Assembly: GCF_001746755.1 (NCBI RefSeq)
Contig: NZ_MCGG01000022.1
Span: 1 to 56,928 of the forward strand
Origin: Magnetovibrio blakemorei
GTDB lineage: Bacteria > Pseudomonadota > Alphaproteobacteria > Rhodospirillales > Magnetovibrionaceae
Direction of reading: 5' to 3'
DNA length: 56,928 nt
Below are positions 11,290 to 41,076 of the stretch, in pieces (position 1 is the stretch's first letter; each line of letters begins with the position of its first letter). A model generated the notes under the pieces. That model was not told the DNA's origin, made no database searches, and was given only the letters and a program-made list of their open reading frames with translations. The position numbers and the translations under genes were made by a program.

Positions 11290-11308
11290 TTTTTATTCCT
11301 CCCTTTCT

Positions 11309-14176: not shown

Positions 14177-14191
14177 GTCTGCATTCTCCCC

Positions 14192-14398: not shown

Positions 14399-14445
14399 GT
14401 TCCTTTCGAAATGGCTTCGATGCGCCCCTCACCGTTGCACCGCGT

Positions 14446-16029: not shown

Positions 16030-16033
16030 TCCC

Positions 16034-16567: not shown

Positions 16568-16633
16568 GTCCTCACCAGTCCAACACAGTCCACCACCGCC
16601 AACTCCATCGCGACAATAAGTCTATGCAAAACC

Positions 16634-17515
16634 TTAGTCGTCTTTTGTTTGCTTATGTCCAGCATCCGTTTTGCGCGGTGCATCGAACTTTATATGATCT
16701 TCCCCGGACAAGGCGACAAACCGTTCGCCACGGGCCCGACCGATCAAAATCACCCCGGCCTTGCGCGCCAATTCCACGCCCCAGGCGGTAAAGCCGGACC
16801 TCGACACCAATACGGGGATACCCATCTGCACCGTTTTGATCACCATTTCAGAGGTTAACCGTCCGGTGGTGTAGAAAATCTTGTCGCCGCCGGATATGCC
16901 TTCCATGAACATCCATCCGGCAATTTTATCAACCGCGTTATGCCGCCCGACATCTTCCATATAAACCAACGGCCGGTCTTGTTCGCACAACACACAGCCA
17001 TGTATCGCCCCCGCCTTGAGATACAAGCTCGGCGCCATATTGATGGCCTTAATGAGCGGATATAAGCGGCTGGTGCGGATTTCCACGTCTTGCGGCAGAT
17101 TGACCGTATCGAACGTCTCCATCACGTCACCAAAGACGGTGCCCTGAGCACAGCCCGATGTGAGGGTTTTCTTTTGCAGTTTGTCTTCAAAATTGGTGTC
17201 TTTGGCCGTGCGCACAACAATCGTATTGATGTCATCGTCATAATCTATGGCGGTGATTTCATCATCGTCGCGCAGCATATTTTGATTGCGCAGGTAACCC
17301 ACGGCCAAGTAGTCGGGGTAATCGCCGATGGTCATCATGGTGACAATTTCTCGGCTGTTCAAAAACAGTGTCAGCGGCCTTTCCACCGACACCGATGTCG
17401 TGACCTGATCACCGTTCTGATCGACCCCAATGACCTCAGCCGTGAGCCGTGGATCGTTCGGGTTCGGCCCAAGCAACAAACCTGAAGCTTCTTTCAATTT
17501 TTCCACATCGGCCAT
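16634..17515 (-). CDS. fdhD: Formate dehydrogenase accessory sulfurtransferase FdhD
   Basis: A 293-residue FdhD-family protein. FdhD moves sulfur from IscS to the molybdenum cofactor, which formate dehydrogenases need for activity. Seen: PLTLFLNSREIVTMMTIGDY, YLAVGYLRNQNML, VYMEDVGRHNAVDKIAGWMF (about 190-210) and FYTTGRLTSEMVIKTVQMGI, all family signatures. The loop that often reads CxxC has one Cys here (TSGCAQGTVFG), as in some relatives. It is the first gene of the minus-strand cluster and could serve both formate dehydrogenases in this window, since no fdhD lies near the fds genes. Confidence 0.9.
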   Translation of the reverse strand: MADVEKLKEASGLLLGPNPNDPRLTAEVIGVDQNGDQVTTSVSVERPLTLFLNSREIVTMMTIGDYPDYLAVGYLRNQNMLRDDDEITAIDYDDDINTIVVRTAKDTNFEDKLQKKTLTSGCAQGTVFGDVMETFDTVNLPQDVEIRTSRLYPLIKAINMAPSLYLKAGAIHGCVLCEQDRPLVYMEDVGRHNAVDKIAGWMFMEGISGGDKIFYTTGRLTSEMVIKTVQMGIPVLVSRSGFTAWGVELARKAGVILIGRARGERFVALSGEDHIKFDAPRKTDAGHKQTKDD

Positions 17516-25266: not shown

Positions 25267-26699
25267 GGATCGTTGTGCCTCGCATCGTTCCCATGGCCGC
25301 CGTATTTCTGGTGTCGGGGTGCCTCACGACCGTTGGACCGGACTACACCCCGCCAAAAATGGATGCCGGGCAAGATTTTATCGCCCCTCAGCCGCTCGCC
25401 GACGCGACGCGGGCGCAAGACATCTGGTGGACAGCCTTTGAGGACCCGATCCTCGTCCGCCTGATCGAAACGGGGCTGACGAATAACTTAGATATTCAAC
25501 TGGCCGATAGCTTGGTTCGAGAATCTGAGGCCACGCTGGTGTCCACAGGTGCCGCGCGGAGCCCGACCCTTGATGGCTCAGCGACCACCACCACCACCAG
25601 CGACCGAAAACTCGGCGCTTCAGCATCAAATGCCGACAGAAACATGTCGCCCAACACCGATACGCTTGTCGGTGGCGTGTTTTCTTGGGCCGCAGATTTG
25701 TTCGGTGGCGCTAAGCGCGCTGAAGAGGCTGCGCGTGCCGATGCCGAGCGACAGGCCTGGTTGCGTCGTGATACCATGTTGGCCGTTGTCTCTGACATTG
25801 CCCGCACATATGTGGCTTTGCGCGGAGCTGAGCAGCGTTTGGTCTTAACCCAGGAATCTCTTGATCTGCAACGGCGCACGGTTGAGATCGTCACCAGCCG
25901 TGTCAATGCCGGTCTGGCCCCAGGTATGGATCTGTCCAGGGCCGAGGCTTCCGTACAAGCCTTGGAAGCTGACCTAAGCCCGATCGAGACCGAAATCCGC
26001 CAGGCCCGCGACACCCTATCGACATTGGTAGGACGCCGCCCAGGGGGTATTGATAATATTGCCCCCGTAGACGGACCATCCGCCGTTCCCACGATCTTTG
26101 CCACCCCCGTCTTGGGCCAACCGGCTGACATGTTGCGCAGACGTCCCGATCTGCGCGCCGCCGAACGCGACCTGCAAAGCGCCACGGCGGGTATCGGCGT
26201 TGCTGAATCCGCACTTTATCCCAGCCTGACAATTCCGGCCAAATTTCAGGTCACGATAAAGGGTTTTGGCACTTCAGAGATTGTCCGCACATTGCTTGCC
26301 AGTCTTGGCGCAACGCTCGATATTCCAATTTTTGATGGCGGTGCCGCTCGCGCCGATTTAACCATCGCCGAAGAACAAGCCCGCCAAGCGCTCATCACCT
26401 ACCGCTCGACCTTGCTCACGGCCCTGTCAGAAGTTGAATCTGCGCTCCATGCCCATGATGGTGCACAGCGGCGTCTAACAGCCCTGAACCGTGCCGTGGC
26501 TGCAGATGCCCGCGCTTACGAACAAGCCAGCACACTCTATGCACAAGGTTTGACGAGTTTTCTGAATATTCTCGATGCACAACGGACAATGACCACAACC
26601 CGCCTGCGCCAAGTCATCACACGTACCGATCTGGCGACCACGTCCATCGACCTGTTTCAGGCTGTAGGGTTTGCCCCAATGGACACTGTTGCCAAATAA
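25263..26699 (+). CDS. RND efflux outer membrane factor, NodT family lipoprotein
   Basis: A 478-residue TolC-like outer membrane channel. The N-terminus has a lipoprotein signal (AAVFLVSGCLTT, with the Cys that would be lipidated), followed by GPDYTPP, typical of the NodT family. The two repeated OEP domains run about residues 60-255 and 285-470, with long helices (AADLFGGAKRAEEAARADAE and LASLGATLDIPIFDGGAARA). It completes the tripartite pump with the two genes upstream. It is convergent with the bicupin gene, 37 bp apart. Confidence 0.9.
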   Translation: MRIVVPRIVPMAAVFLVSGCLTTVGPDYTPPKMDAGQDFIAPQPLADATRAQDIWWTAFEDPILVRLIETGLTNNLDIQLADSLVRESEATLVSTGAARSPTLDGSATTTTTSDRKLGASASNADRNMSPNTDTLVGGVFSWAADLFGGAKRAEEAARADAERQAWLRRDTMLAVVSDIARTYVALRGAEQRLVLTQESLDLQRRTVEIVTSRVNAGLAPGMDLSRAEASVQALEADLSPIETEIRQARDTLSTLVGRRPGGIDNIAPVDGPSAVPTIFATPVLGQPADMLRRRPDLRAAERDLQSATAGIGVAESALYPSLTIPAKFQVTIKGFGTSEIVRTLLASLGATLDIPIFDGGAARADLTIAEEQARQALITYRSTLLTALSEVESALHAHDGAQRRLTALNRAVAADARAYEQASTLYAQGLTSFLNILDAQRTMTTTRLRQVITRTDLATTSIDLFQAVGFAPMDTVAK

Positions 26700-26736: not shown

Positions 26737-27447
26737 TTATCCGATCGCTTTAGAGCTCAGGCCAGCGTAAGCACTGTCGTCACGTACTTCGACGTCTTCA
26801 AGATGCCCAACTTTCACGTAAATCAAACAACCTTGATCTGAAAACGGCGTATGTGGACTTGGCTCTGGGTTTCTTGACCATGTCCCGGCGGGATAGTCTC
26901 CAAATTCATCCTGAAACATGCCTTCAAGGACGTAAATTTCTTCCCCTCCAAGATGACCGTGGCGTTGAAACTTTGTGCCCGGTTGCCACCGGACCAGAGC
27001 CACGCTTTCTTGCTTATAGCGATGCAGCGGCAAGACGCTCAATCCCTCGACAAGACCGGGAGAGAACGGCGTATTCTGGGTGTCGATCCGCACCGTTGTG
27101 TTATCTCCCTTTTGAAACTGCCACAACTTGACCAAAATTAACGCGCCATCAGTGGTGAAAGGCGCATGGCTTGAGCCGACAGGATTTCGCACATACGTCC
27201 CCGGTCCAAAATCTCCGTCTTGATCTGAAAACGTTCCTTCCAAGACCAGAAACTCTTCTCCACCGTCGTGGGTGTGTTCGGGAAACGAAGCCCCCGGAGC
27301 AAATCTCACCAGCGACGTTGCCCGCGCGACTTCATCGCCAATACGATCCAACATCAAGCGGTCCACACCCAAAGTTGGAGATGCAATCCAATCTGCATCA
27401 CCGGGACGAACGACAACCCGCTTGGTGAAATCGGCATTGATCAACAT
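26737..27447 (-). CDS. Bicupin protein, ChrR-like cupin repeats
   Basis: About 236 residues with two successive cupin domains of the ChrR anti-sigma C-terminal type. First: FAPGASFPEHTHDGGEEFLV, about residues 53-72. Second: WQPGTKFQRHGHLGGEEIYV in the second half. Each has the His-x-His...Glu pattern that holds a metal ion. The N-terminal zinc-binding anti-sigma part of true ChrR is absent, so an enzymatic or sensing role is open. The start at 27447 lies 6 nt after AAGGAG; an ATG six bases earlier touches that site and is less likely. It ends 37 bp from the efflux operon and follows the second mobB on the same strand. Confidence 0.82.
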   Translation of the reverse strand: MLINADFTKRVVVRPGDADWIASPTLGVDRLMLDRIGDEVARATSLVRFAPGASFPEHTHDGGEEFLVLEGTFSDQDGDFGPGTYVRNPVGSSHAPFTTDGALILVKLWQFQKGDNTTVRIDTQNTPFSPGLVEGLSVLPLHRYKQESVALVRWQPGTKFQRHGHLGGEEIYVLEGMFQDEFGDYPAGTWSRNPEPSPHTPFSDQGCLIYVKVGHLEDVEVRDDSAYAGLSSKAIG

Positions 27448-27481
27448 GGTCATCTCCTTGCGGCAATATTTTCCGGGCATG

Positions 27482-28000
27482 TTATGCTGCAGTCTTCTTG
27501 GGTTTAGACAATCCCGTATGGTTTAAAATGAAATCTGCAATACCGGGAATGTCATTCAAGTCTAGGCTGGGGCGTGCACTGTCTGAGATGGCTTCATCAC
27601 TGGCCACGGCAACGATGGTGGAATTTCCGGGGGCGAGGAATGTCTTTCCATGACGGGGGCGATAGACTTCCAGTTTGTCATGCCCTTCCCGTTTAAAGCC
27701 CTCGACCAGGACCAAATCAACCGGCTTCATGTGTTCCAGCAATTCAGTCAAAGTTGGTTCCGGTTCGCCGCGCAATTCACGCACCAGCGCCCATCGTCCT
27801 GCAGACGACACCAGAACCTCATCTGCTCCGGCCTGACGGTGGCGATATGAATCCTTGCCCGGTTTATCAATGTCGAAATTGTGGTGGGTGTGCTTCATCG
27901 TCGAAATACGCAGGCCCCGCTGCTTCAATTCGGGAATCAGATGGATGAGCAATTCCGTCTTGCCGCTGCCGCTCATGCCGACGATACCAAACACGCGCAT
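27482..28000 (-). CDS. mobB: Molybdopterin-guanine dinucleotide biosynthesis adaptor MobB (copy 2)
   Basis: About 172 residues, closely similar to the product at 7025-7561 along the whole length. It has the P-loop GIVGMSGSGKTELLIHLIPE, the shared MKHTHHNFDIDKPGKDSYRH and LVLVEGFKREGH. The DNA is also clearly alike over the P-loop and HTHHNFD regions. The ATG at 28000, with GGGGAGGG upstream, is preferred over the in-frame start at 28060. It stands 35 bp after S-formylglutathione hydrolase in the same direction, so in the C1 island it may help supply molybdenum cofactor for the NAD-type formate dehydrogenase. Confidence 0.88.
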   Translation of the reverse strand: MRVFGIVGMSGSGKTELLIHLIPELKQRGLRISTMKHTHHNFDIDKPGKDSYRHRQAGADEVLVSSAGRWALVRELRGEPEPTLTELLEHMKPVDLVLVEGFKREGHDKLEVYRPRHGKTFLAPGNSTIVAVASDEAISDSARPSLDLNDIPGIADFILNHTGLSKPKKTAA

Positions 28001-28034
28001 TATCCCTCCCCTTGCATTCAAAAGGGTTGTTGGG

Positions 28035-28889
28035 TCATGAACAGCCCAGAGCCTCGGCATGATGGGCGATGTGATCTTCCATGAAGGTGTTCATGAAGTA
28101 GTAGCTGTGGTCATAGCCCTCCTGAAAACGCAGGGTCAGCGGGAAACCCGTTTCTGCGGCGACTTTTTCCAAAAGATGCGGCTTCAATTGCTCGTTCAAA
28201 AACTCATCAGCCAACCCTTGATCCACCAAAACCGGCTTATACTGGCTCTTGTCCATGGCGCGGATCAATTCCACGGCGTCGTGCTGTTTCCAGACGCTGT
28301 GATCGGAACCAATGTAACCGGAAAAGGCTTTTGCGCCCCAAGGACAAAAAGTCGGAGAACAGATCGGCGCGAAGGCCGAAATGCTTTTGTAGATTTCAGG
28401 ATACTTAAAGCCCAGCGTCAGGGCGCCATGCCCCCCCATGGAATGACCAAAAATGCCTTGGCGGTCCATGTCCGCATTCAAGCTGTCCTTGATGACGGCT
28501 TGCAGGTCTTGGGTGACGTAGGATTCCATACAGTAGTTTTTTGCCCACGCTCCGCGTGTGGCGTTGATGTAAAACCCTGCACCCGTGCCAAAATCCCAAT
28601 CGTCGTCTTCGCCCTCGATCCCTGCGCCTCGTGGGCTGGTGTCCGGGGCCACAAGAATAAGGCCGTGTTTTGCCGCATACTGTTGTGCGCCGCCTTTGAT
28701 CAAGAAGGTTTCCTCATTGCACGTCAACCCGGCCAAATAGGTCAACACGGGCAGCTTTTCGCCGCGATCGGCTTGCGGCGGAAAATACACGCCAAATTTC
28801 ATTTCACCGTTCACCGCATCCGACCCATGGCTGTAATAGGCCATTCGTCCACTATGGCAACGATGTTCCTTGATTAAGGTTATGCTCAT
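28035..28889 (-). CDS. fghA: S-formylglutathione hydrolase
   Basis: About 284 residues. It hydrolyses S-formylglutathione to formate and glutathione, the last step of glutathione-dependent formaldehyde oxidation. Alpha/beta hydrolase signs of the esterase D family: the nucleophile elbow GIFGHSMGGHGALTLGFKYP, LTYLAGLTCNEETFLIKGGA early in the protein, and the catalytic His in GYDHSYYFMNTFMEDHIAHH near the C-terminus. An ATG at 28889 and a GTG at 28901 are both possible starts; the ATG gives the normal family length. It lies just downstream of the dehydrogenase gene, across a long hairpin. Confidence 0.93.
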   Translation of the reverse strand: MSITLIKEHRCHSGRMAYYSHGSDAVNGEMKFGVYFPPQADRGEKLPVLTYLAGLTCNEETFLIKGGAQQYAAKHGLILVAPDTSPRGAGIEGEDDDWDFGTGAGFYINATRGAWAKNYCMESYVTQDLQAVIKDSLNADMDRQGIFGHSMGGHGALTLGFKYPEIYKSISAFAPICSPTFCPWGAKAFSGYIGSDHSVWKQHDAVELIRAMDKSQYKPVLVDQGLADEFLNEQLKPHLLEKVAAETGFPLTLRFQEGYDHSYYFMNTFMEDHIAHHAEALGCS

Positions 28890-28906
28890 TGAATCACTCA
28901 CTAATC

Positions 28907-28963
28907 ATCCCAAGAAAACGTCCAGAAGGTATATGGGGGTATAACCTTCCGGACGCTTGGGAT
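28907..28963 (-). promoter_or_regulatory. Long intercistronic hairpin between adhC and fghA
   Basis: Outer arms ATCCCAAG (28907-28914) and CTTGGGAT (28956-28963) enclose inner arms starting CGTCC (28919-28923) and ending GGACG (28951-28955), with further pairing (GAAGGTATA against TATAACCTTC) around a G-rich loop. The stem lies inside the short gap between the formaldehyde dehydrogenase and hydrolase genes. On the minus-strand transcript it ends right before the start region of fghA, so it may tune mRNA stability or translation. Confidence 0.65.
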
Positions 28964-29018
28964 AGAGGCCACCGGCCCCCTGGGAAAACCTGAAATTGAA
29001 AACCGAAAATTGAGAACC

Positions 29019-30233
<1,215 letters not shown>

Positions 30234-30382
30234 TCAACGGGACAACATTCTGCGGAACTCAGTTACCTATATCTATCCCGGCAATGAAAATGATTTGTTT
30301 TGATCCGTTGATAGTTTTTTTTAATGAATCAAAACATATGGAAAATAGTCTCAGATTTCAATCCCTTCAGGATCTATTCTGT

Positions 30383-31315
30383 CTACACGCGGGTACAGTC
30401 TTCAAAGAACATCGAATCAATATCGAGTTCTTCCGCGGCCTTGAAAAAGCTTTCCGTCACAACCGAGGGATGCTCGATTTCAGCCATCTGCAAACCGATC
30501 ACGTGAGAAATTTCCGGCTCTACAATTTTGATCATGCGGGTGCCGGGTGGCTCCGAGCAAAATGCGAAGCATTCCCTGGGCACGACTCCGGACCATCCGC
30601 CCGAACGGACGTGCGCGGCCAAGTTCATCAGCGAATTGGTCTCGATTTGCGGGCGCACTTCATGGCCCAATTCGCCATAAATTTTGTCGATGATGCGCCG
30701 ATTTTGCATGGTTTTGTTGAGCAGCACCAACGGCGTGTTTATGGTTTCCGTCCACGTCACGCTGTCGCGTCCGGTGAAGGGGCCGTGGATGGGGGTCAGC
30801 AGGGCCAGGTTTTCCGTATAGAGCGGCAGTTCCTTAATTTTGGCCATGCGCGTCTCGTCCAGATAGGAAATTCCCAAATCCAGAGCAAAGCTCTCCAGAT
30901 CACTCAAGATGCCCTGGGCACTTCGGCTTGTGACCTCAATGAACACACCGGGGTGGTTTTTGCCGAACCGCGACGTCACCCACGCCGCAATGGGCAAAAC
31001 CGAAGGCACCACACCGATGCGCAACGTGCCCGCCAGACCGTCGCGCATAAGGTTGAGCTCTTCTTTGAGTTTTTCGCTTTCGGACAAGACGCGATTGGCG
31101 TGTTCAAGCACCCGCAAGCCTTCTTGGGTAAACCCGGAAAAGCGATGCCCGCGGTGCACAATGGGGATGCCCAGCTCTTCTTCAAGCTGGCGAATGGCGC
31201 TGGACAGTGTTGGCTGTGAAACATTGCATTTCTGAGCAGCCCGGCCGAAATGCTTCTCTTCGGCCAGCGCCGAAAGGTATACCAAGCGTCGAACGATCAC
31301 TTTTTGTCCTCCCAC
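30383..31315 (-). CDS. LysR-type regulator, resembling regulators beside fds formate dehydrogenase operons
   Basis: A 310-residue LysR regulator. The N-terminal winged helix-turn-helix reads EKHFGRAAQKCNVSQPTLSS (about residues 20-39), followed by the linker helix and the effector-binding domain (LRIGVVPSVLPIAAWVTSRF). It lacks the two-cysteine switch at the OxyR position; a CFAFC pair occurs later, about residue 250, in a different context. The overall pattern (NKTMQNRRIIDKIY, ETNSLMNLAAHVRSGGWSGV) resembles the LysR proteins commonly found next to fds-type formate dehydrogenase genes. It is 12 bp after the MauG-like gene and so is probably the last gene of the mtoX operon. Likely targets are mtoX, fds or adhC; this is inference. 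Confidence 0.85.
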   Translation of the reverse strand: MGGQKVIVRRLVYLSALAEEKHFGRAAQKCNVSQPTLSSAIRQLEEELGIPIVHRGHRFSGFTQEGLRVLEHANRVLSESEKLKEELNLMRDGLAGTLRIGVVPSVLPIAAWVTSRFGKNHPGVFIEVTSRSAQGILSDLESFALDLGISYLDETRMAKIKELPLYTENLALLTPIHGPFTGRDSVTWTETINTPLVLLNKTMQNRRIIDKIYGELGHEVRPQIETNSLMNLAAHVRSGGWSGVVPRECFAFCSEPPGTRMIKIVEPEISHVIGLQMAEIEHPSVVTESFFKAAEELDIDSMFFEDCTRV

Positions 31316-31327
31316 CCTTGCGGATGA

Positions 31328-32548
31328 TCAGTGTGTTGGGTTGCCCACTTTTGTACTGCGTGCATCTGCGATCAAGGCTTCAATGTTATCCCCGGTCAAG
31401 CTTTCCAAGAAACGGACCAATGCACGTTGCTCTTGCGTCGTCATCCCCAGGGGTTTGAGCTTTTCATCCAGTCCTGGGTTCTTCAAGCCGCCCTGGTTGT
31501 AGAATTTGACCACGTCTTCAAGCGTTCGCAAAGAACCTTCGTGCATATAGGGCGCGGTTTTGGCAACGTTGCGCAGCATCGGCGTTTTGTATTTCCACCG
31601 ATCATGGGTATCCAAGGTCACTTCATAGCGCCCGATATCCTCCGGTTTTTCCTGCCCGACCGCATTGATCGCTGCCCGCGTCACGGTGCCGCTGACGCCC
31701 GGTGCGAGGTACACTTCGACGTCACCCTCCTGGGGGCCGAAGGTGTTGAAGTAACCGACCCCGGTGTTGTGAAAGGCGTTGTCGGTGAAGAGCGCATGAT
31801 CCCCGTCAATAGTATGACATGCCACACATCCGCCCTTGCTGACGAACAGATTGAAGCCGGCCTTGACCTCTTGCGACACGGCATCCTCTTCATTGCCGAA
31901 ATACCACCGGTCAAACGGTGAATTGGCGGACAGAACTGTGCGTTCATAAACCGCTATAGCGTCTCCCAGGACATCTAAACTTACCGGCGCGTTGTAGGCC
32001 TGTTCGAACAAGCCATCATAGTCTTTTGTATGACGGATGGTTTCAATCACGTAACCCAATGAGGGATTGCTCATTTCCACCCGTGACGTGAGTGGGCCGA
32101 ACACCTGATGTTCCAGATCGGGGTCTCGCCCATCATGAAACATGGTGGTGTAATAGGCCGCATTGAGTATTGTCGGCGCATTGCGGCGCACGGTGCGCCC
32201 CTCCATACCGACGGCTGTGGCGATTTCGTTGACCGTGAAGCCTTGTTCCGGCACGTGGCACATGGCGCACGAAATGGTGCCGTTGTGCGACAGGCGGCGA
32301 TCAAAAAACAGCTTGCGCCCCAACGATACCTTTTCAGGCGTGATCGCCGCCAGCACCGATTTAGGCAAGGACGGCAAACCCAAGGGTGGATTGTGCGCCC
32401 GTTGGACGGCATTTTGGTCGAACGACGTGATGGTCAATTCAGCACCATCAACAGTCCCAAGCGCAGACCCGCAGCCCACAATCGCCAACATCACGCATCC
32501 TGTACGAATTACAGCGTGAATTTTCTTATACCATTTGGCCCTCCTCAT
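31328..32548 (-). CDS. MauG/cytochrome c peroxidase family di-heme protein
   Basis: A 406-residue periplasmic protein with an N-terminal hydrophobic export segment (VIRTGCVMLAIVGCGSALG) and two CxxCH heme c sites (SCAMCHVPEQG, about residue 92; GCVACHTIDGDH, about 238). The sequence LGRKLFFDRRLSHNGTISCA is the classic start of the cytochrome c peroxidase/MauG fold. In the methanethiol oxidase gene sets known from Hyphomicrobium a mauG-type gene stands beside mtoX and SCO. It may modify a residue of MtoX or remove the H2O2 formed. Its start overlaps the SCO stop by 4 bp. Confidence 0.9.
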   Translation of the reverse strand: MRRAKWYKKIHAVIRTGCVMLAIVGCGSALGTVDGAELTITSFDQNAVQRAHNPPLGLPSLPKSVLAAITPEKVSLGRKLFFDRRLSHNGTISCAMCHVPEQGFTVNEIATAVGMEGRTVRRNAPTILNAAYYTTMFHDGRDPDLEHQVFGPLTSRVEMSNPSLGYVIETIRHTKDYDGLFEQAYNAPVSLDVLGDAIAVYERTVLSANSPFDRWYFGNEEDAVSQEVKAGFNLFVSKGGCVACHTIDGDHALFTDNAFHNTGVGYFNTFGPQEGDVEVYLAPGVSGTVTRAAINAVGQEKPEDIGRYEVTLDTHDRWKYKTPMLRNVAKTAPYMHEGSLRTLEDVVKFYNQGGLKNPGLDEKLKPLGMTTQEQRALVRFLESLTGDNIEALIADARSTKVGNPTH

Positions 32549-33528
32549 TTGGCCGCGCTCATGCGTTGTTCCAAAAGCAATGTCTTCAGATCGTTGACCA
32601 CCAGCTCCGGGTAAAGGAACGAGGTCGAATAGATGTTTCTGACCTTGTGGTTCCGGTCGACCAAATAGACCTTAAGCACGTGCGAAAATGAACCGATCTG
32701 ATGCCCTTCCTCGTCAATGTCTTTGACGATGTATTGACCGTAACCATCCAAGATCGGATTCAAGTCGGCTTCCGATGCTGTGGTTAAAAAAGTCCAGGTT
32801 TGATCCACCGTTCCTTTTTGCACAGACCAACTTCCATCGGTTTGTTTCGCGGCGCCTCTGCAAATGGACTCTGGCCCCAAAAGCGCAACCATCTGTGTGG
32901 CCTGCTCGGTTCCGAATTTTGCTTCCAAGGTGTGGAAGTGCAAACTGTGGTCGACGCTATCGTCAGCATGGACATTGGCAAAATCCGCCATCACGTCCGG
33001 GGTATCATTGATCGGATCGAAGCTCAAAGTCACCATTTTGATGCTGGATTTCAGCGATGGGTCCGCATTGATCAGGTCTTCAACCTCATAAAAGCTTGAA
33101 ATCGCCATGGGGCATCCGGTTTCATCACCGCATTGGGTATAGATGAAACTGATCAAACCGACCTTGTCGCCAAGGATATCGAACAGCTTTCGTTTTTGGC
33201 CCAATACATCCACGACATCGCCATCAACGCCGCGGCCAATTCTGGCCAATACATACGTTCCGGGTTCGGGCGGGGTAAACTGCACGCCGCCTGGGTTGAC
33301 GATGACCCGCGCCTGGGTCATGTCGACGGTGGAGCGCTTTGCTTGTGGCCTAGACTGAGTGGCCTTAAGTGGTTCGTTTTGGGTGTCATGCGCCGCAGCG
33401 CCATCCCTAAAGTCGCCCCAAGAAAAGAATGCGATGGCGGCACAGGCCGCCATCGCAAACGCGGTGAGGAAAGACGTCTTAGGGGTGACGAATGAGAAAT
33501 CGCCTTTACGGTTGGGATGATGTCTCAT
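32545..33528 (-). CDS. SCO1/SenC-family copper chaperone with an extended cysteine motif
   Basis: A 327-residue protein. An N-terminal membrane anchor (FLTAFAMAACAAIAFF) is followed by a thioredoxin-like SCO domain. SCO proteins hold copper with two Cys and a distal His. Here the cysteine motif is YTQCGDETGCPMA (about residues 130-142), a CX5C spacing where classical SCO has CX3C. A His in FSHVLKVYLVDRN (about residue 285) fits the distal ligand. It lies 32 bp after mtoX. The likely job is copper delivery to the copper-dependent methanethiol oxidase, in line with its place in known mtoX gene clusters. Confidence 0.88.
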   Translation of the reverse strand: MRHHPNRKGDFSFVTPKTSFLTAFAMAACAAIAFFSWGDFRDGAAAHDTQNEPLKATQSRPQAKRSTVDMTQARVIVNPGGVQFTPPEPGTYVLARIGRGVDGDVVDVLGQKRKLFDILGDKVGLISFIYTQCGDETGCPMAISSFYEVEDLINADPSLKSSIKMVTLSFDPINDTPDVMADFANVHADDSVDHSLHFHTLEAKFGTEQATQMVALLGPESICRGAAKQTDGSWSVQKGTVDQTWTFLTTASEADLNPILDGYGQYIVKDIDEEGHQIGSFSHVLKVYLVDRNHKVRNIYSTSFLYPELVVNDLKTLLLEQRMSAAK

Positions 33529-33560
33529 GTGTCTTTCCTTCCTATACGGGTCACTACGGA

Positions 33561-34970
33561 TCAGTTTTGCACTTTGGTCGATTGGACCAAAGACGCGGAC
33601 TGCTTAGCTTTGTCTTTCTCGATCATGGCCGCCGTTTTGCCGTACAAAGAGTATGCGCCGAACCGCATCTGGTGCGCACGGCCCAGCTTTTCCTTCAAGA
33701 AATCGATCGAAAACTGTTCCGTCATAGCCTTGCCGTCCCAGTTGTAAGCCTTGAAGAACTGCTCGCCGTCTTCACCCTTCTTATCCCAGTTCGCCAACAG
33801 CGAGGTGGTGTAGTACATGCGCTTGCCATCCCAAGACTGCGAAGCCATGTTCACCTGCTTGCCAACCGTATGTTCGTAGATCTGCTTGGGGTGGTGCGGA
33901 TCGGAAATGTCGAACAAACGGGATTTGGCGTCCATGAAGGTCTGCACCCACATGTAGTTATCGTCGGCGGAAATGGAGATGTCGACCGGCAGCGGAATCT
34001 TCGATGGATCACCAATGTCGGCCACCGCCTCAGCCTGCCATTCGCCCTTGTCATCTTCATAGATCAACCAGATCTTCGATGTCAGGGCCGTGGTGGTGAA
34101 GGCATAGTTGTGGGTCGGGCCCCAAGCAAAGCGCAATTCCAACGGCGCGCCCGGAACGTCGAGCACTTTGGTGGGCTTTCGCGAATGCAAATCCCAAACC
34201 GTTACCGTGTTGCCGAACCGTTTCATGGCTTCCGGATCTTGCAGCATTTTGCCGAAGTCCATCATGTAGTTGGACCAGCCGGTAAACGACGAGGTCAGCA
34301 TCACGTTACGGCGCGGCAACACGCGGACATCATAATTGTATCCGTCAGTCATCGAACTCAACTTGGCCCCGCCGCTGTCCTTTTTGGTCGGCACCCAGTG
34401 GGTGGAGATATATTCGCCCTCGTTGGTGTATTCCACCAACGCGGTTCGACCGCCATGGTCTTGGTCGTTGGAAAGACCCGTGATCATGATACGACCCGGT
34501 AGTGCATAGGTCGTGTGCGGGCCGACAACGCCGCCTGACTTTTCGACGAAGTCATTGATGACTTTGTAAACCGTCGGCTTGGCGGGGTCTGAATGGACAT
34601 CAAACAACCACAGCTTGGAGGTATCCAGGCCACCTGCCCACAGATACTGACGGTCATCCGTAAAGCCCGAATGGTGAGCTTCGTTGCGTCCGCCAACGGA
34701 CAGGGAGTTGACGACTTTGCCATAGCTCGGAGAATCCGGGCGGACATCGACGGTGACCAATTTATCGGAACCGTCTCCCAGACCCTCGATACCAAGCGTC
34801 CACACGTAAACAAAATCTTCCTGGCCGGTGATTTTCGCCATGTAAGGTGACTGGCACGTTTCATCGGCCAGAACTCCGCTGGGCGCTGACATGGTCGTGG
34901 CACCCAATAGCGCCGCAGCAGCAAATGCGTAACGGGCGCTTTTACTACGAACAATATTATAGATATTCAT
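33561..34970 (-). CDS. mtoX: Methanethiol oxidase, SBP56 (selenium-binding protein) family
   Basis: A 469-residue protein with a signal peptide (about 1-35, ending APSGVLA), so it is periplasmic, followed by the full SBP56 fold (CQSPYMAKITGQEDFVYVWT, VGGRNEAHHSGFTDDRQY, FTGWSNYMMDFGKML, PLPVDISISADDNYMWVQ). The Hyphomicrobium member of this family is a copper-dependent methanethiol oxidase that converts methanethiol to formaldehyde, H2S and H2O2. The gene is first of a minus-strand operon with SCO, MauG-like and LysR genes, matching the known arrangement. It is divergent from the NAD-type formate dehydrogenase operon, and downstream formaldehyde enzymes are nearby. The assignment is strong by family plus context; activity is not proven by sequence. 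Confidence 0.9.
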   Translation of the reverse strand: MNIYNIVRSKSARYAFAAAALLGATTMSAPSGVLADETCQSPYMAKITGQEDFVYVWTLGIEGLGDGSDKLVTVDVRPDSPSYGKVVNSLSVGGRNEAHHSGFTDDRQYLWAGGLDTSKLWLFDVHSDPAKPTVYKVINDFVEKSGGVVGPHTTYALPGRIMITGLSNDQDHGGRTALVEYTNEGEYISTHWVPTKKDSGGAKLSSMTDGYNYDVRVLPRRNVMLTSSFTGWSNYMMDFGKMLQDPEAMKRFGNTVTVWDLHSRKPTKVLDVPGAPLELRFAWGPTHNYAFTTTALTSKIWLIYEDDKGEWQAEAVADIGDPSKIPLPVDISISADDNYMWVQTFMDAKSRLFDISDPHHPKQIYEHTVGKQVNMASQSWDGKRMYYTTSLLANWDKKGEDGEQFFKAYNWDGKAMTEQFSIDFLKEKLGRAHQMRFGAYSLYGKTAAMIEKDKAKQSASLVQSTKVQN

Positions 34971-35238
34971 ACACTTTCCTCCCGGTTTGACTATAAGACT
35001 GACAAAATCCGACGATTATTATTGTTATTTATCAGATAATTGACAGTACAAATTACCTTTTCACTGTTGTGTTTACTTAGGACACGTGATAGAGCAATTG
35101 TCATTCATCTTGTAATTTTTATAATTATAAATGAAATTGTTTAATTCAATTGGTTGATAGCTTTTAACTATTAAGCTGAAATTGCTTTCCAAAATGAGGG
35201 ATTAGCGCTTCGCCGCATATAGCCGATGCAAAACAATC
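34971..35238. promoter_or_regulatory. Divergent AT-rich promoter region between mtoX and fdsGB
   Basis: A 268-bp, strongly AT-rich gap between two divergent operons. It holds a perfect 12-bp palindrome TTATAATTATAA (35119-35130), flanked by the inverted ATTCAT/ATGAAA-type words at 35103 and 35131. A LysR-type operator here would fit the regulator at 30383-31315, but LysR sites are degenerate and this is inference. Confidence 0.45.
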
Positions 35239-36939
35239 ATGAAAAATGGTCCAGAAATGACTGAGCAACCGCGCCGCAAAAACTCCTCCGCCTTCCCCAA
35301 GGGGCGCAGTTTGAACGAGCAGAGTGGGACGGATATTCTCGACCTTGTGGCCGATTCGGCCCTTGCTCACGCCAATTTTCCCCGCGATGAATTAATTGAA
35401 TACCTTCACCTCATCCAAGACCGCTATGGGCACATCTCGCCTGATCGGCTCGCCGCGCTGGCGCATGTGATGAAGCTGTCCCAGGCCGAGGTCTATGAGA
35501 CCGCAACATTTTATGCGCACTTTCAAGTCACGCGAGACGGTGATGTAGCACCGCCACCGCTCACCATTCGCGTGTGCAATGGTCCAAGCTGCAAGATGCA
35601 AGGTGCCGAGGCCTTAGTCCATGAGCTCGGCGACCTGCAAGGCGGCGCCCGCATTGAAGAGGTACCGTGCGTTGGGCGCTGCGATGGCGCTCCGGTCGCC
35701 GCCCTAGGCAAAAATATCATCCCCTCGGCCACCGCCCAAACGGTTGCTGCGGCGACAAGGTCCGGTGACAGCAAAGCCAAAATCGGGACCTATGAAAACT
35801 TGGATGGTTATTTGGCAGCAGAGGGTTACCAGGCATTCCACGCTCTGATGAGCGGCGTGCTCACCCGCAAAGATGTTTTTCGCGAACTTGAGGTGTCCGG
35901 CTTGCGTGGACTTGGTGGTGCGGGATTTCCGGTGGCGCAAAAATGGCGTTTCCTGGACGGTCAGACCAAACCGCGAGTGGTCGCTGTCAACGCCGATGAG
36001 GGCGAACCCGGCACTTTCAAAGATCGCCATCTTCTCGAAACGCAGCCTCACCGGGTGCTCGAAGGCGCGTTGATCGCCGCTTTCTCAATCGAAGCCGACG
36101 ACGTGTACATCTATCTGCGCGACGAGTACCCGCACATCCACACGATCTTAAGTACCGAGATCGAGCAGCTGATGCGCCGCGCACTCACCCACGGTATTCG
36201 CCTGCATCTGCGGCGCGGCGCCGGGGCCTATGTGTGCGGCGAAGAAAGCGCCATGCTGGAAAGCCTGGAAGGCAAACGCGGATTGCCGCGCAATCGCCCA
36301 CCGTTTCCGGCCCAAGCGGGCCTGTTCGGCCGTCCGACCTTGGTCAACAATGTCGAGACCCTGTATTGGGTGACCGATATCTTGAACACTGGGGGCGCAG
36401 ATTTTCTGGCGCGGGGACGTCGGCATTTTTATTCGGTGTCGGGGCGCGTTAAAACGCCGGGCGTCAAGCTGGCCCCGGCGGGGGTGACGGTCCGCCAGTT
36501 GATCGATGACTACGCCGGCGGCATGTCTGAAGGTCATGTGCTGAAAGGCTACCTGCCGGGTGGGGCTTCGGGTGGCCTGTTGCCCGCCAGCCTTGCCGAC
36601 GTGCCGCTCGATTTTGGCACTTTGGAACCGTACGGATGTTTCGTCGGCTCCAGCGCCGTTGTGGTGCTGTCCGATCACGACGATGTGCCGAACTTGGTCC
36701 GCGACCTGATGGACTTTCTCGCCCACGAAAGTTGCGGGCAATGCACGCCGTGCCGTTCCGGAATTCCAAAACTGCAAAGTTTTCTGGACGATCCCCATGC
36801 GCACCGGGACATCATCGAAGAGCTATCGCAGGTGATGCGGGACGGATCGATCTGTGGCCTGGGTCAGGCCGCCCCCAATCCGGTCATTAGTGCACTGCGT
36901 CACTTTAGCGATGACTTCAAGCCCAAGGACCGCGCATGA
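35239..36939 (+). CDS. NAD-type formate dehydrogenase, fused gamma-beta subunit (FdsG-FdsB)
   Basis: A 566-residue fusion. Residues about 30-185 are NuoE-like (FdsG), with a [2Fe-2S] site from RVCNGPSCKMQGA (about 112-117) and EVPCVGRCDGAP (about 144-148). Residues about 200-566 are NuoF-like (FdsB): the NADH/FMN region GLRGLGGAGFPVAQKW (about 228), CGEESAMLESLEGKRG (about 333), and a [4Fe-4S] site in ESCGQCTPCRSG (about 497) plus SICGLGQ near the end. The enzyme passes electrons from formate to NAD+. The two subunits are separate genes in many bacteria; the join here is clean. The stop overlaps the alpha gene start by 4 bp. Confidence 0.93.
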   Translation: MKNGPEMTEQPRRKNSSAFPKGRSLNEQSGTDILDLVADSALAHANFPRDELIEYLHLIQDRYGHISPDRLAALAHVMKLSQAEVYETATFYAHFQVTRDGDVAPPPLTIRVCNGPSCKMQGAEALVHELGDLQGGARIEEVPCVGRCDGAPVAALGKNIIPSATAQTVAAATRSGDSKAKIGTYENLDGYLAAEGYQAFHALMSGVLTRKDVFRELEVSGLRGLGGAGFPVAQKWRFLDGQTKPRVVAVNADEGEPGTFKDRHLLETQPHRVLEGALIAAFSIEADDVYIYLRDEYPHIHTILSTEIEQLMRRALTHGIRLHLRRGAGAYVCGEESAMLESLEGKRGLPRNRPPFPAQAGLFGRPTLVNNVETLYWVTDILNTGGADFLARGRRHFYSVSGRVKTPGVKLAPAGVTVRQLIDDYAGGMSEGHVLKGYLPGGASGGLLPASLADVPLDFGTLEPYGCFVGSSAVVVLSDHDDVPNLVRDLMDFLAHESCGQCTPCRSGIPKLQSFLDDPHAHRDIIEELSQVMRDGSICGLGQAAPNPVISALRHFSDDFKPKDRA

Positions 36940-39662
36940 CAAACCCCATCGCCTTCACCCTCAACGGTCAAGCCGTCACCGCTGAGTCCGGAGAAACCAT
37001 CTGGCAGGCCGCGAAGCGCCACGGCATCGATATTGAGCATCTCTGTTACAAACCCCGCCAAGGCTATCGCGCGGACGGCAACTGCCGGGCTTGCTTGGTT
37101 GAGGTCAAGGGCGAGCGAACCTTGGCCGCGTCGTGTCGCCGCCCTGTGCAGAGCGGCATGGACATTCGCACCGATACGCCGCGTGCCCAAACGGCCCGGC
37201 GCATGGTCGTGGAAATGCTGTTGGCGGACCATCCCGGCAACACGGACGCCACCATTTCCGATGTGCGTGCCTGGGCAGACCACATGGGCCTTGCGGAGAG
37301 CCGCTTTGCGTCGCCCACCCAAGCAGACGCAGACCAAAGTCATCCCGCCATTCACTTTAAACCGTCGGCATGCATCACCTGCGGGCTGTGCATTCGCGCT
37401 TGCCGGGACGTTCAATCCAACGATGTGATCGGTTTCTCAGGAAGGGGAGCGCACACCCGCATCGTTTTTGACCAAGGTGACGACCTGGGCAACAGCACCT
37501 GCGTGGCATGCGGCGAATGTGTCGAAGCCTGCCCCACGGGGGCGCTGCGCCCGGCCCATGAAGCCTTCGCCCCCCAGACAGGCGATCAAAAAATTGCCTC
37601 CACCTGTCCGTTTTGCGGTGTCGGCTGTCAAATCGAATACACCGAACGTAAAGGCAAAATCGTCCTTGCCGAAGGACTGGACGGTCCGTCTAATCACCAC
37701 CGCCTGTGCGTCAAGGGGCGCTTTGGGTTTAGCTACACCCACAATGTCGCACGCCTCACCAAACCTCTGATCCGCAAGGGCGGAGCGGCCAAGACCCCCG
37801 CAGATATTCCACCGCCCGACAAACGCTTAGACGCCTTTCGCGAAGCCACCTGGGATGAAGCCTTGGCACTGGCTGCAGACGGTTTTAAAACCATCCGGGC
37901 CCGCGATGGCGGCGCGGCGCTGTCGGGATTTGGGTCCGCCAAGGGCTCCAACGAAGAAGCCTATCTGTTTCAAAAGTTGATTCGCACTGCGTTTGGCTCC
38001 AACAATGTCGACCACTGCACCCGTTTGTGCCACGCCTCCTCAGTTGCGGCACTGCTGGAGGGCGTCGGGTCCGCCGCCGTAACAGCCCCATTCATGGCCG
38101 CCGAGGAGGCCGACGTGATCATCCTTATTGGATCACGCCCCGAATGGAATCACCCCGTCGCCGCCGCATGTTTCAAAACCGCCGCCAAACGCGGAGCGAA
38201 ACTGATCATCTTTGACCCACGCGGACAGGGATTGGCACGCTATGGTCAGCAACTGAACTTCAAATCCGGCACCGATGTGGCGCTGATCAACGCCCTGCTC
38301 CACACCATCATTTTTGAAGGACTGACCGACCAGAATTTCATCGCCAAGTTCGTTGACGGTTATGATGAACTGGTTAAGGCCGTAAAGGATTATACCCCGG
38401 AACGCATGGCGGACTTGACGGGCATTGACGCGTCCATTCTGCGCCAGGTGGCGCGCCAATATGCGACGGCCAAACGTTCCATCATCTTTTGGGGCATGGG
38501 CGTGTCGCAACATGTCCACGGCACCGACAATGCACGCGCCTTGATCGCCCTTGCGCTGATCACCGGACACATCGGTCGTCCCGGCACCGGACTTCATCCC
38601 CTGCGCGGCCAGAACAATGTTCAGGGCGCATCTGACGTCGGCTTGATTCCCATGTTCTTGCCCGATTATGCGTCCATTAAGGATGACGCCGTTCGCGCCC
38701 GGTTCGAGGCGGCATGGGGTACCAAACTGTCCCCAATTCCGGGTCTTACGGTGGTGGAAACCATGGACGCCGCCAACGCGGGCGTCATCAAGGGCATGTA
38801 TGTGATGGGGGAAAATCCGGCCATGTCTGACCCCGATGCCAACCATGCCCGCGCGGGTTTGGCCAAGCTGGAACACTTGGTGGTTCAAGATATATTTCTC
38901 ACCGAAACCGCATGGCTGGCAGACGTGATCCTGCCCGCTTCGACGTTTTACGAAAAAACCGGCACCTACACCAACACCAACCGTCAAGTGCAGATGGGCC
39001 GGAAAGTCGTTCACCCGCCTGGCGATGCACGTCAAGATTTTGATTTGATCTGCAATTTGGCCGAACGTCTGGGGTGCGCATGGAACTACGCGGGCCCTGA
39101 AGAGGTTTATGCGGAAATGCGCACCCTGATGCCCTCGATATCGGGTATATCGTGGGACCGTCTGCAACGCGACAACAGCGTCGTCTACCCCTGCACGGAC
39201 GAACACTTGCCCGGCCAAGACATCTTGTTCGGCGATGGCTTCCCCACGGCATCCGGGCGTGCGCGTTTGGTACCCGCCGACTTGACACCGCCCGATGAGA
39301 TGCCCGATGAGGCGTATCCCTTCCTGCTCACCACCGGACGTGTTCTGGAACACTGGCACACTGGCGCGATGACCCGCCCGGCGGATGTCTTAAACGCGAT
39401 TGAGCCACACCCCACCGTGTCGCTCCACCCCAAAGCCATCGGCAAGCTGGGCGTGAGCGCAGGGGCGCACGTCAAGGTCGAAAGCCGTCGCGGAGAAGTG
39501 GAACTGATGGTTAGGGCTGACCGCGACGTCCCGGAAGGTCTCGCCTTCATCCCGTTTTGTTTTCACGAGGCCGCCGCCAATCTTCTGACCAATCCAAAGC
39601 TGGATCCCTACGGCAAAATTCCGGAATTCAAAGTCTGCGCAGTCAAGGTCACCGCCCTTTGA
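36936..39662 (+). CDS. fdsA: NAD-type formate dehydrogenase, molybdopterin alpha subunit (FdsA)
   Basis: A 908-residue cytosolic subunit without an export signal. The N-terminus has a NuoG-like [2Fe-2S] domain (CYKPRQGYRADGNCRACLVE, about 37-56) and two ferredoxin motifs (CITCGLCIRAC, about 147; CVACGECVEACP, about 189). The molybdopterin part begins with CPFCGVGCQIEYTE (about 222). The molybdenum ligand is Cys in TRLCHASSVAAL (about 364), so not selenocysteine. It oxidises formate and passes electrons through its Fe-S chain to the FdsGB subunit. No fdsC or fdsD gene follows; fdhD at 16634 may supply the sulfurtransferase. Confidence 0.93.
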   Translation: MTNPIAFTLNGQAVTAESGETIWQAAKRHGIDIEHLCYKPRQGYRADGNCRACLVEVKGERTLAASCRRPVQSGMDIRTDTPRAQTARRMVVEMLLADHPGNTDATISDVRAWADHMGLAESRFASPTQADADQSHPAIHFKPSACITCGLCIRACRDVQSNDVIGFSGRGAHTRIVFDQGDDLGNSTCVACGECVEACPTGALRPAHEAFAPQTGDQKIASTCPFCGVGCQIEYTERKGKIVLAEGLDGPSNHHRLCVKGRFGFSYTHNVARLTKPLIRKGGAAKTPADIPPPDKRLDAFREATWDEALALAADGFKTIRARDGGAALSGFGSAKGSNEEAYLFQKLIRTAFGSNNVDHCTRLCHASSVAALLEGVGSAAVTAPFMAAEEADVIILIGSRPEWNHPVAAACFKTAAKRGAKLIIFDPRGQGLARYGQQLNFKSGTDVALINALLHTIIFEGLTDQNFIAKFVDGYDELVKAVKDYTPERMADLTGIDASILRQVARQYATAKRSIIFWGMGVSQHVHGTDNARALIALALITGHIGRPGTGLHPLRGQNNVQGASDVGLIPMFLPDYASIKDDAVRARFEAAWGTKLSPIPGLTVVETMDAANAGVIKGMYVMGENPAMSDPDANHARAGLAKLEHLVVQDIFLTETAWLADVILPASTFYEKTGTYTNTNRQVQMGRKVVHPPGDARQDFDLICNLAERLGCAWNYAGPEEVYAEMRTLMPSISGISWDRLQRDNSVVYPCTDEHLPGQDILFGDGFPTASGRARLVPADLTPPDEMPDEAYPFLLTTGRVLEHWHTGAMTRPADVLNAIEPHPTVSLHPKAIGKLGVSAGAHVKVESRRGEVELMVRADRDVPEGLAFIPFCFHEAAANLLTNPKLDPYGKIPEFKVCAVKVTAL

Positions 39663-39673
39663 GTGCACGCCTT

Positions 39674-39710
39674 AAAAAAACCGCCCGCCGTTTGGGATAA
39701 CGACGAGCGG
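39674..39710 (-). terminator. Intrinsic terminator downstream of gfa
   Basis: On the minus strand the arms at 39699-39710 and 39681-39692 pair over 12 bp (two G-U pairs), and the hairpin is followed by seven T residues (39680-39674). It lies 40 bp after the stop of gfa and on the same strand, and so ends that transcript. It is also just past the fdsA stop and may act weakly in the other direction. Confidence 0.75.
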
Positions 39711-39749
39711 CCAAGTCACCTCAACGAACGGACGAGGTTGGGGGATAAA

Positions 39750-40307
39750 TCATTTCGCCATATGGGCGGCGATGGCGTCCATCAACGGGGGAGACAGGCA
39801 GTCATAAGGCTCCAGGTTCAATTCCTTCAGCCGTGCGCGCACGCCTGACATGTCTTCTGGCTTGGTGCCCGATTCGATGATCGAAGAAACAAATGCGGCA
39901 AACTCGGCCCCAGACCAACCGTCACTGTCTGACAACTCGGTGTGGATGAAATCCAGGCCGTAGAATGGATGACCGGTATTTTCAATGCGTCCATACATGT
40001 GAGTACCACATTCCGTGCAAGCATGGCGTTGGATCGTGGCACTTTCATCAACGACCTTCAGCTTATGAGCGTTAGCCGTCACGGTCACTTTGTCACGTGG
40101 CACAACGGCCACTTGCGAGAACAACGCGCCTGCCGGTTTCCAACATTTTGTGCAGCCACAGACATGGTTATGGGCGCTTTGCGCCGCCACGCGGACAACG
40201 ACCTTGTCGGTAGCGCAGTTGCAACTCAATTCGCCGCCATTGAAACCATCAGCGCCAGCTTTGACGCCGCCGTCAACAGCCGGATGAATTTTCACAGAAT
40301 CACTCAT
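39750..40307 (-). CDS. gfa: S-(hydroxymethyl)glutathione synthase (glutathione-dependent formaldehyde-activating enzyme)
   Basis: A 185-residue Gfa-family protein that speeds the addition of glutathione to formaldehyde, giving the substrate of AdhC. Zinc-binding cysteine groups of the family are seen: ELSCNCA (about 27-33), [19 protein letters not shown] (about 48-66) and [16 protein letters not shown] (about 94-110). The C-terminal [10 protein letters not shown] is helical. It is convergent with fdsA and has its own terminator. Together with adhC and fghA it completes the glutathione-linked formaldehyde pathway in this window. Confidence 0.93.
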
Positions 40308-41076
40308 TTAAAACCTCCACGAATAGACACCTAGTACTTATACAATACTAGACATATTGTTATAAATTTATGATTTCAAAATAATTTAATCGTTTAATTC
40401 CGTAAATTGCATTTATATTTATGAATTGATAGAAATAGCCTATGACAACTTTCCATGAAGCAGCAGACTCATCTGCAAGATTTGCGATGATATACGGGTC
40501 ATTTTGTATACGCTTCAGATCTGACACGGTTGATGATATGTGCACCGAGGATCTGCTCACAATCCCAGGACAAATGCTGTCGTTCCGCGCCCTCTTTAGG
40601 AAGGTTTGTATATTTCGTGTAACTCAAATTTATAGGCGCCGTCCACATGGTCCGTCGTCGAGGAGATTGCATATCGGTCACGGGTTATTCCTGTTGGTAG
40701 CTGGAGGCAGCTACCGCCAGTTTCGACCTTTTGTTGAAGTCGTGAGAATTCACATAAAGAAATGAAATATTTCAACGAGTTGTCGATAAGTTATACAAAC
40801 CAACGCATTCAACAGAGGGCACGGCCTTACGACTACTGCCAGCCTGCAAGCGGCCATTCAGAAAGGTCAGGTCTGCTTTGGGGTGCTTAGCGGACGTTAT
40901 TTCAGGGATCATCTAATATTGGTTGCGATACGAAGGACATTTGGGAAATGTCGGTTTAGACTATTTTGTTTTGTATTAGTTTTATGCTAACCATGACAAT
41001 AACCACATATCAATTGTGTGTATAATAAGTCTAATGTGCTCGATGTTTTTTAACCATCTTCCATGAGGGCCTCATT
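40308..41076. other. Long gene-free stretch upstream of the giant adhesin
   Basis: About 770 bp with no gene I can support. The left 150 bp are AT-rich and should hold the gfa promoter. The right 120 bp are AT-rich too, with a TATAAT hexamer at 41021-41026 about 50 bp before the adhesin ATG; no good -35 lies at the right spacing. A frame at 40442-40765 is open for 107 codons, but its product looks random. Confidence 0.35.

Follow-up and report, generated by a model that had tools for sequence, protein, structure and literature searches.

The alphaproteobacterium Magnetovibrio blakemorei carries, on contig NZ_MCGG01000022.1, a gene cluster whose content predicts the full conversion of methanethiol to CO2. 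It spans 26.7–40.4 kb of the 56,928-nt stretch of DNA that we analysed (the window), and joins a methanethiol oxidase gene and its two companions, mtoX-sco-mauG, to glutathione-dependent formaldehyde genes, a formate dehydrogenase (FDH) and a LysR-type regulator gene. We read it, at a probability of about 0.7, as a dedicated methanethiol dissimilation unit in which the mtoX-sco-mauG front end was added to a LysR-controlled formaldehyde-to-CO2 module. The mtoX-SCO-mauG core is already known, and the present cluster is a fuller version of it; newly described here is a LysR-type dyad that lies both before adhC and in the spacer between the divergent mtoX and fdhB, pointing to a gene cluster that is possibly co-regulated.

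Gene content and predicted chemistry

An initial annotation, made from the letters of the sequence and its open reading frames (ORFs), had named mtoX, SCO, MauG-type, gfa, adhC, fghA, mobB, LysR and formate dehydrogenase genes; all are present and intact where it had placed them, as judged by the ORF list and profile scores (curated NCBIfam cut-offs, plus Pfam cut-offs where NCBIfam gave none). Its divergent promoter region is real, a 268-bp spacer between mtoX and fdhB. The tight single block holds as a clustering of genes, but a cupin gene extends the adhC run and gfa is a separate unit. The features are as follows.

33561..34970, minus strand: mtoX, methanethiol oxidase precursor (NF052453, 764.3 bits, equivalog cut-off 650; conserved Cys, His and Trp)
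32545..33528, minus strand: sco, SCO/SenC-like copper chaperone (PF02630, 40 bits, cut-off 23; CX5C instead of CX3C)
31328..32548, minus strand: mauG, MauG/MbnH-like di-heme enzyme (PF03150, 170 bits, cut-off 26; two CXXCH)
30383..31315, minus strand: lysR, LysR-type regulator, candidate regulator of the block (PF00126/PF03466)
29019..30173, minus strand: adhC/flhA, S-(hydroxymethyl)glutathione dehydrogenase (TIGR02818, 642 bits, cut-off 544)
28035..28901, minus strand: fghA, S-formylglutathione hydrolase (TIGR02821, 412 bits, cut-off 282)
27482..28060, minus strand: mobB, molybdopterin-guanine dinucleotide adaptor (TIGR00176, 162 bits, cut-off 76)
26737..27480, minus strand: tandem ChrR-like cupin, final gene of the adhC run (PF12973, 212 bits)
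35239..36939, plus strand: fdhB, fused FdsG-FdsB-like NADH-binding formate dehydrogenase subunit (7e5z_B, 640 bits)
36936..39662, plus strand: fdhA, catalytic formate dehydrogenase subunit, FDH1 type (TIGR01591, 706 bits, cut-off 666)
39750..40307, minus strand: gfa, S-(hydroxymethyl)glutathione synthase (TIGR02820, 327 bits, cut-off 235)
30283..30328, minus strand: operator-like site 1, upstream of adhC, dyad 30308–30328 (46-bp block conserved in two further genomes, G001 and G021)
35129..35174, minus strand: operator-like site 2, in the mtoX/fdhB spacer, dyad 35154–35174 (second-best in the window whichever matrix was used)
40426..40446, minus strand: weaker operator-like site 3, before gfa (third-ranked with a single matrix)
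16634..17515, minus strand: fdhD, the sole FdhD-family gene found in the genome

The first minus-strand run reads mtoX, a 32-bp gap, sco, a 4-bp overlap, mauG, a 12-bp gap and lysR; a 209-bp gap separates lysR from adhC (whose start shared with relatives is probably 30125), and then come fghA after 117 bp, mobB with a 26-bp overlap and, 1 bp on, the cupin gene. On the plus strand fdhB and fdhA overlap by 4 bp, and gfa is convergent with fdhA. The GC and GC3 values of the block genes resemble those of neighbouring genes; with no island signal in composition, recent acquisition of foreign DNA was rejected on this measure.

MtoX is a predicted methanethiol oxidase by family score and by residues: Cys39 (in TCQSPYM), His99, His100, His152 and His433, and Trp232 and Trp395 are invariant with Ruegeria pomeroyi MtoX and relatives, and the texts of PMC5739008 and PMC10936201 describe a reactive cysteine, four histidine copper ligands and two tryptophans of a proposed tryptophan tryptophylquinone in this enzyme. 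By eye, the N-termini of MtoX, SCO and the MauG-like protein resemble export signals. The last of these falls under the NCBIfam cut-offs for MauG (TIGR03791, 218.6 versus 443.85 bits) and for the MbnH type (TIGR04039, 219.8 versus 362.85), and is therefore filed as MauG-like only, with a presumed role in cofactor maturation. The SCO protein found no match in the curated NCBIfam search. Ordinary SCO proteins carry CX3C; among 89 partly redundant rows of mtoX-linked SCO proteins, 85 have CX5C (C-x-D-x-x-G-C-P) and the other four CX3C, and at mtoX loci 17 genes of the CX3C kind, located some 3 kb downstream, encode a second SCO protein. One relative (G176; L125 8960–11750) has two tandem mtoX copies, 69% and 62% identical to the window MtoX, before sco and mauG.

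The initial annotation took H2S and H2O2 as the inorganic products of MtoX, which agrees with the older reading given in the text of PMC5739008 and is disputed by that of PMC10936201, where sulfane sulfur and water are reported for Rhodobacteraceae MtoX enzymes. It had also remarked that the window lacks genes for handling H2S and H2O2; such genes are encoded outside it, namely SoxB (865 bits, cut-off 550) with SoxA and SoxY, an FCSD_central-domain protein (150 bits versus a cut-off of 27) that we take as FccB-like, and KatG (1229 bits, cut-off 770). The missing methanol dehydrogenase holds for the whole genome, in which the best match to the pyrroloquinoline quinone (PQQ) methanol dehydrogenase profile TIGR03075 scores 48.5 bits versus a cut-off of 480.

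On the carbon side, Gfa, AdhC and FghA each exceed their equivalog cut-offs. The formate dehydrogenase, which had been annotated as fdsGB-fdsA, is by sequence comparison of the FDH1 type. FdhB is one fused 566-residue subunit that aligns from end to end (residues 14–564) with the tungsten FDH beta subunit 7e5z_B at 640 bits (next match 312; 6tg9_B and 9wxb_C, 250 and 252), and FdhA, with its N-terminal ferredoxin part, aligns over residues 4–906 of 908 with 7vw6_A/7e5z_A at 1211 bits, versus 618 for 9wxb_B and 607 for 6tg9_A. We take 7e5z and 7vw6 to be the tungsten FDH1 of Methylorubrum extorquens, which shares the fused beta subunit and ferredoxin-type alpha N-terminus at about twice the bits of the next PDB matches, and 6tg9 to be the Fds-type enzyme of R. 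capsulatus; 9wxb is counted as Fds type by inference. An Fds-type identity, with separate FdsG and FdsB, was rejected on the fused beta subunit and on these scores. What sets the M. blakemorei enzyme apart from the presumed M. extorquens FDH1 is its linkage to mtoX. It is an extra copy, since the genome holds another FDH1-type copy (contig C26), 60% identical to the one in the cluster and 75% to that of a congener (G003); the copy in the cluster shares 78% identity with one in congener G001. About 10 kb away, at 7025–17515 of the window, lies a membrane-type FDH operon encoding a 955-residue catalytic subunit, cytochrome b561, Fe-S proteins, DUF3306 and FdhD, the last presumably needed for the clustered FDH too. 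The cupin (best PDB match 3o14, 180 bits) is a possible, unrecognised accessory of methanethiol oxidation.

In the scheme that we favour, exported MtoX, with copper and cofactor maturation by SCO and the MauG-like protein, would release formaldehyde on the outer side of the cytoplasmic membrane. Once in the cytoplasm, it would combine with glutathione, spontaneously or through Gfa; AdhC and then FghA would convert the glutathione-bound form to formate, and the NAD-linked FDH1-type enzyme, matured by MobB and the genome's single detected FdhD, would yield CO2 and NADH. Sulfur would be handled elsewhere, by SoxABY and the FccB-like protein, and peroxide, if any, by KatG. LysR would probably bind TTGATAG-N7-CTATCAA-like dyads before adhC, in the mtoX/fdhB spacer and perhaps before gfa, switching the parts together in response, most likely, to a formaldehyde-derived signal and not to methanethiol itself.

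Operator-like dyads and the LysR regulator

In the lysR-adhC spacer, the window, G001 and G021 (a genome from another family) share a conserved block of 46 bp, which contains a dyad of the form TTGATAG-N7-CTATCAA; beside adhC in G001 and G021 stand LysR proteins 84% and 74% identical to that of the window. Scanned with a 46-bp matrix from all three genomes, the mtoX/fdhB spacer gives the second-best match in the whole window (22.8; next 16.2), a score that none of 1,000 shuffles of the spacer reaches (best 20.4). The same ranking is obtained across the 57-kb window with a matrix made solely from the G001 and G021 adhC promoters (adhC 52.5, mtoX/fdhB 23.0, next 13.7), although even for matrices that leave the window out, the block itself had been picked from an alignment with the window in it. 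A 21-bp dyad matrix from the same two adhC promoters gives 24.0 for adhC, 14.7 for mtoX/fdhB and 12.4 for the next match.

A further occurrence lies before fdhB in G001, whose fdhB and adhC are on different contigs. There the fdhB promoter is the best match on its contig with the adhC-only 46-bp matrix (16.8; next separate match 13.7), a site first found with a window-containing matrix and later recovered without the window; with the 21-bp dyad matrix an overlapping register leads at 12.4 and the dyad itself is third at 10.0. From coordinates, the site ends 70 bp upstream of the likely fdhB start in G001 and 64 bp upstream of it in the window. A dyad matrix that includes this G001 site scores adhC at 24.5, mtoX/fdhB at 16.7 and gfa at 14.0, followed by a coding-region match at 13.4, and the dyad matrix maximum in 51 kb of other sequence from the same genome is 12.0. 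A strict dyad pattern occurs three times in the window (adhC, mtoX/fdhB, gfa) versus 0.03 times in shuffles; written after the sites had been seen, it is weaker evidence than the adhC-only matrices. Taken together, these sites make a single putative LysR regulon of adhC and fdhB/mtoX likely.

Genomes in which mtoX was lost or gave no match still keep lysR-adhC-fghA, and an inducer derived from formaldehyde therefore seems likelier than methanethiol. The same pattern, in G001 and G021, makes lysR look like the regulator of a formaldehyde module into which mtoX was drawn, and not a methanethiol-specific one. The initial proposal of a dedicated methylated-sulfur catabolic unit thus gains from the complete gene set and from the dyads at adhC and mtoX/fdhB, and has to be qualified for a lysR that is not methanethiol-specific and an arrangement that is not conserved nearby.

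The cluster in relatives and in known systems

mtoX is rare around M. blakemorei: it was found in 8 of 150 relatives, own genome included (two of the eight being distant homologues of 25–34% identity), and in 7 of 317 genomes of the order, again including its own (E 1e-60). A true adhC was found in one of the 17 other genus and family genomes (G001, 92%) and in none of the four congeners that are 95–100% complete, so the formaldehyde module appears to be accessory, like mtoX. In G001 (assembly 67% complete), lysR (84%), adhC (91%) and fghA (77%) stand in the window order with frames open as far as the contig goes, and fdhBA follows sensor-kinase genes on a different contig. Directly upstream of its lysR is a mauG remnant with several stops (L156 948–1406, G001:C234) that aligns to residues 254–406 of the window MauG, which argues that a second species once had the front end at this junction and lost it by decay. 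G021, which is 99% complete, has lysR-adhC-fghA and no mtoX match in the genome.

A second full unit in the same order, in G041, packs into 12 kb an fdhG-fdhB-fdhA run divergent from mtoX-sco-mauG-gfa, an opposed LysR gene, adhC and fghA. Its FdhA is 38% identical to that of the window and its FdsG is separate, making it another FDH class. In a quick, midpoint-rooted MtoX tree of 99 rows, with named rows picked by likeness to the window, the order's other mtoX carriers lie within one clade of 16 alphaproteobacterial rows (SH-aLRT 96); the window MtoX stands outside that clade, beside 77 mostly gammaproteobacterial rows (SH-aLRT 84), and three more alphaproteobacterial rows also fall outside. 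Given this placement and the differing parts of G041, the two units seem to have been assembled separately. Among the other carriers, G026 has a distant molybdopterin-oxidoreductase match (28–34%) about 4 kb from mtoX.

Further afield we compared 80 named loci, those surrounding the best of 357 confirmed MtoX matches, with at most 10 kb of flank per side and many ending at contig ends. At E 1e-10, sco occurs in 65 of them, mauG in 61, adhC together with fghA in 11, and FdhA and the cupin in three each; gfa, mobB and lysR have no match (at 1e-8, one LysR of 22% identity appears in L087), and conservation of the LysR arrangement in named relatives was accordingly rejected. The three FdhA-bearing loci, L012, L016 and L042, are from Sedimenticola. 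In L016 and L042, one or two small ORFs separate mtoX from a divergent, fused FDH1-like fdhBA (57% and 51–52%), and L012, from a metagenome-assembled genome, reads mtoX, sco/mauG, adhC, fghA and then FDH. The L012 alpha frame (10729–12303), which ends at the end of the stretch, is broken by one stop, not at the catalytic residue; selenocysteine was considered and rejected, the stop being TAG and located before the catalytic Cys. In Thiodiazotropha, L032 and L038 likewise run mtoX, sco/mauG, adhC and fghA, and their stretches break off within the beginning of an FdhB/NuoF-like gene (in L032, 60 bits to nuoF_fam). These Sedimenticola and Thiodiazotropha versions are less complete, G041 being the fullest case. 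After fghA, L032 also carries gshA, for glutamate-cysteine ligase (18653–20257; 478 bits, cut-off 393). Relatives of the window cupin were noted in the Thiodiazotropha mtoX-adhC-fghA neighbourhoods L020, L025 and L032.

Published systems share parts of the cluster. The mtoX-SCO1/senC-mauG operon of Hyphomicrobium sp. VS and relatives has the same three genes in the same order as the window, and the text of PMC5739008, with Figure 2 and Table S7 outside the comparison, describes no formaldehyde or formate genes with it, unlike the window. Closer in content is the IclR-mtoX-SCO-CCP-adhC row of R. pomeroyi DSS-3, given there as the predicted operon SPOA0268-0272 (PMC5739008): it shares mtoX (68%), SCO (35%), the MauG-like gene (49%) and adhC (72%) with the window, but has IclR where the window has LysR, and its 19-kb stretch yields no fghA, gfa, FDH, mobB, lysR or cupin match at E 1e-3, a cupin annotated in it being dissimilar to that of the window. 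According to the same text, R. pomeroyi mtoX transcription rises with methanethiol. The mto-clusters of Methylophaga thiooxydans, as described in the text of PMC6548844, also combine mtoX with an SCO1/MauG maturation gene, but link it to the sulfur side (PDO, SQR, SulP), whereas the window links it to glutathione-formaldehyde genes and FDH. Conversely, a Roseomonas marmotae plasmid has a back end like that of the window (gfa 67%, adhC 77%, fdhB-fdhA 55% and 59%, fused FDH included), with no fghA match and no MtoX, and a methanol/ethanol-family PQQ dehydrogenase about 2.4 kb away. Among the papers listed by searches of open PubMed Central text, figures and supplements aside, we recognised no description of a cluster of mtoX, fghA, gfa and FDH or of a LysR operator for it.

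Competing readings and significance

Several observations weigh against a dedicated, co-regulated unit. The conserved gene order in relatives on which the initial annotation had staked its proposal is not borne out nearby: mtoX was found in none of the 17 other genus and family genomes (five congeners and 12 family members, 8 of the 17 less than 90% complete). G001 and G021 carry lysR-adhC-fghA without an intact mtoX. Among the seven mtoX carriers of the order, own included, the window and G041 alone have linked adhC, although for three of the remaining carriers a contig end lies within 5 kb of mtoX on at least one side; no adhC is near mtoX in the G026 and G574 stretches examined, and in G018 and G023 adhC is on contigs other than that of mtoX. 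Nor does adhC occur near mtoX in seven class-level stretches or in four Skermanella and Microvirga plasmid stretches. The 11 of 80 named loci with adhC and fghA near mtoX do speak for the unit, at 0.29 expected over 1.17 Mb of flank, but this expectation rests on an assumed density of one adhC per 4 Mb and the count is uncorrected for shared ancestry. As to the sites, dyad specificity was scanned in the window and the 51 kb of other own sequence; the gfa site scores 11.4 (rank 5, tied) with the G001 and G021 46-bp matrix, drops outside the top 8 with the adhC-only 21-bp matrix, and is near background, its rank depending on a matrix that includes the G001 fdhB site. In G001, moreover, the dyad precedes fdhB without mtoX beside it, so the spacer site may serve fdhB alone.

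Some of these points would also suit separate neighbouring modules, an mtoX-sco-mauG cassette having been inserted by chance into a formaldehyde-detoxification regulon with no functional coupling. The mtoX-free lysR-adhC-fghA genes and G001 dyad fit that account, as do the R. marmotae genes beside a PQQ alcohol dehydrogenase and the place of the window MtoX outside the clade of the order's other carriers. Yet the dyad sits in the spacer that drives mtoX, mtoX keeps company with adhC, fghA or FDH in other lineages, and the mauG remnant places the junction in a second species; we consider chance insertion unlikely. Similarly improbable, in our view, is that the dyad belongs to another regulator or is an AT-rich promoter element. 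The spacers are indeed AT-rich, LysR binding is a prediction, and sigma-70 promoter and terminator scans of the region gave matches not above chance; but the block between lysR and adhC is strongly conserved in three genomes along with the 74–84% identical LysR, the spacing fits the general LysR rule, T-N11-A, and G041, with a LysR of little similarity (23% over 126 residues), has no match to the block.

A detoxification role, in which methanethiol made by the cell (for example from methionine or dimethylsulfoniopropionate, DMSP) and the resulting formaldehyde are disposed of with no growth benefit, is a serious contender, if somewhat short of an even chance. It draws on a genome in which no PQQ methanol dehydrogenase passes the cut-off and on the R. 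pomeroyi mtoX mutant, which the text of PMC5739008 reports as growing like wild type at 0.5 mM methanethiol. Against it, an NAD-linked FDH within the unit would conserve energy, and the sulfur could yield electrons by way of the Sox and FccB-like proteins. The two uses can hold together, and the dissimilation unit remains the reading that we prefer. We suggest more tentatively that methanethiol-to-CO2 units may have arisen several times, each assembled independently from parts that are not orthologous and that differ in MtoX clade, FDH class and type of regulator. In M. blakemorei, mtoX would have been captured by a formaldehyde-sensing LysR regulon via one dyad, the product being sensed to commit to oxidation; in the sister species the front end would have decayed and the regulon been kept.

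Methanethiol is a key node between DMSP, dimethylsulfide and the inorganic sulfur cycle. A compact carbon-side cluster with a predicted operator makes addressable the question of whether MtoX serves energy conservation or detoxification, and mtoX with linked FDH and adhC is a possible metagenome marker for complete methanethiol oxidation.

Three observations concern the surroundings. The source genome, rated 99.99% complete, gave no small-subunit (SSU) rRNA match. Genes for an RND efflux pump and an outer-membrane factor directly adjoin the block at 22144–26699 of the window. On its other side, 41077–48828 encodes a protein of 2,583 residues with cadherin-like and Ig-like repeats and RTX nonapeptides.

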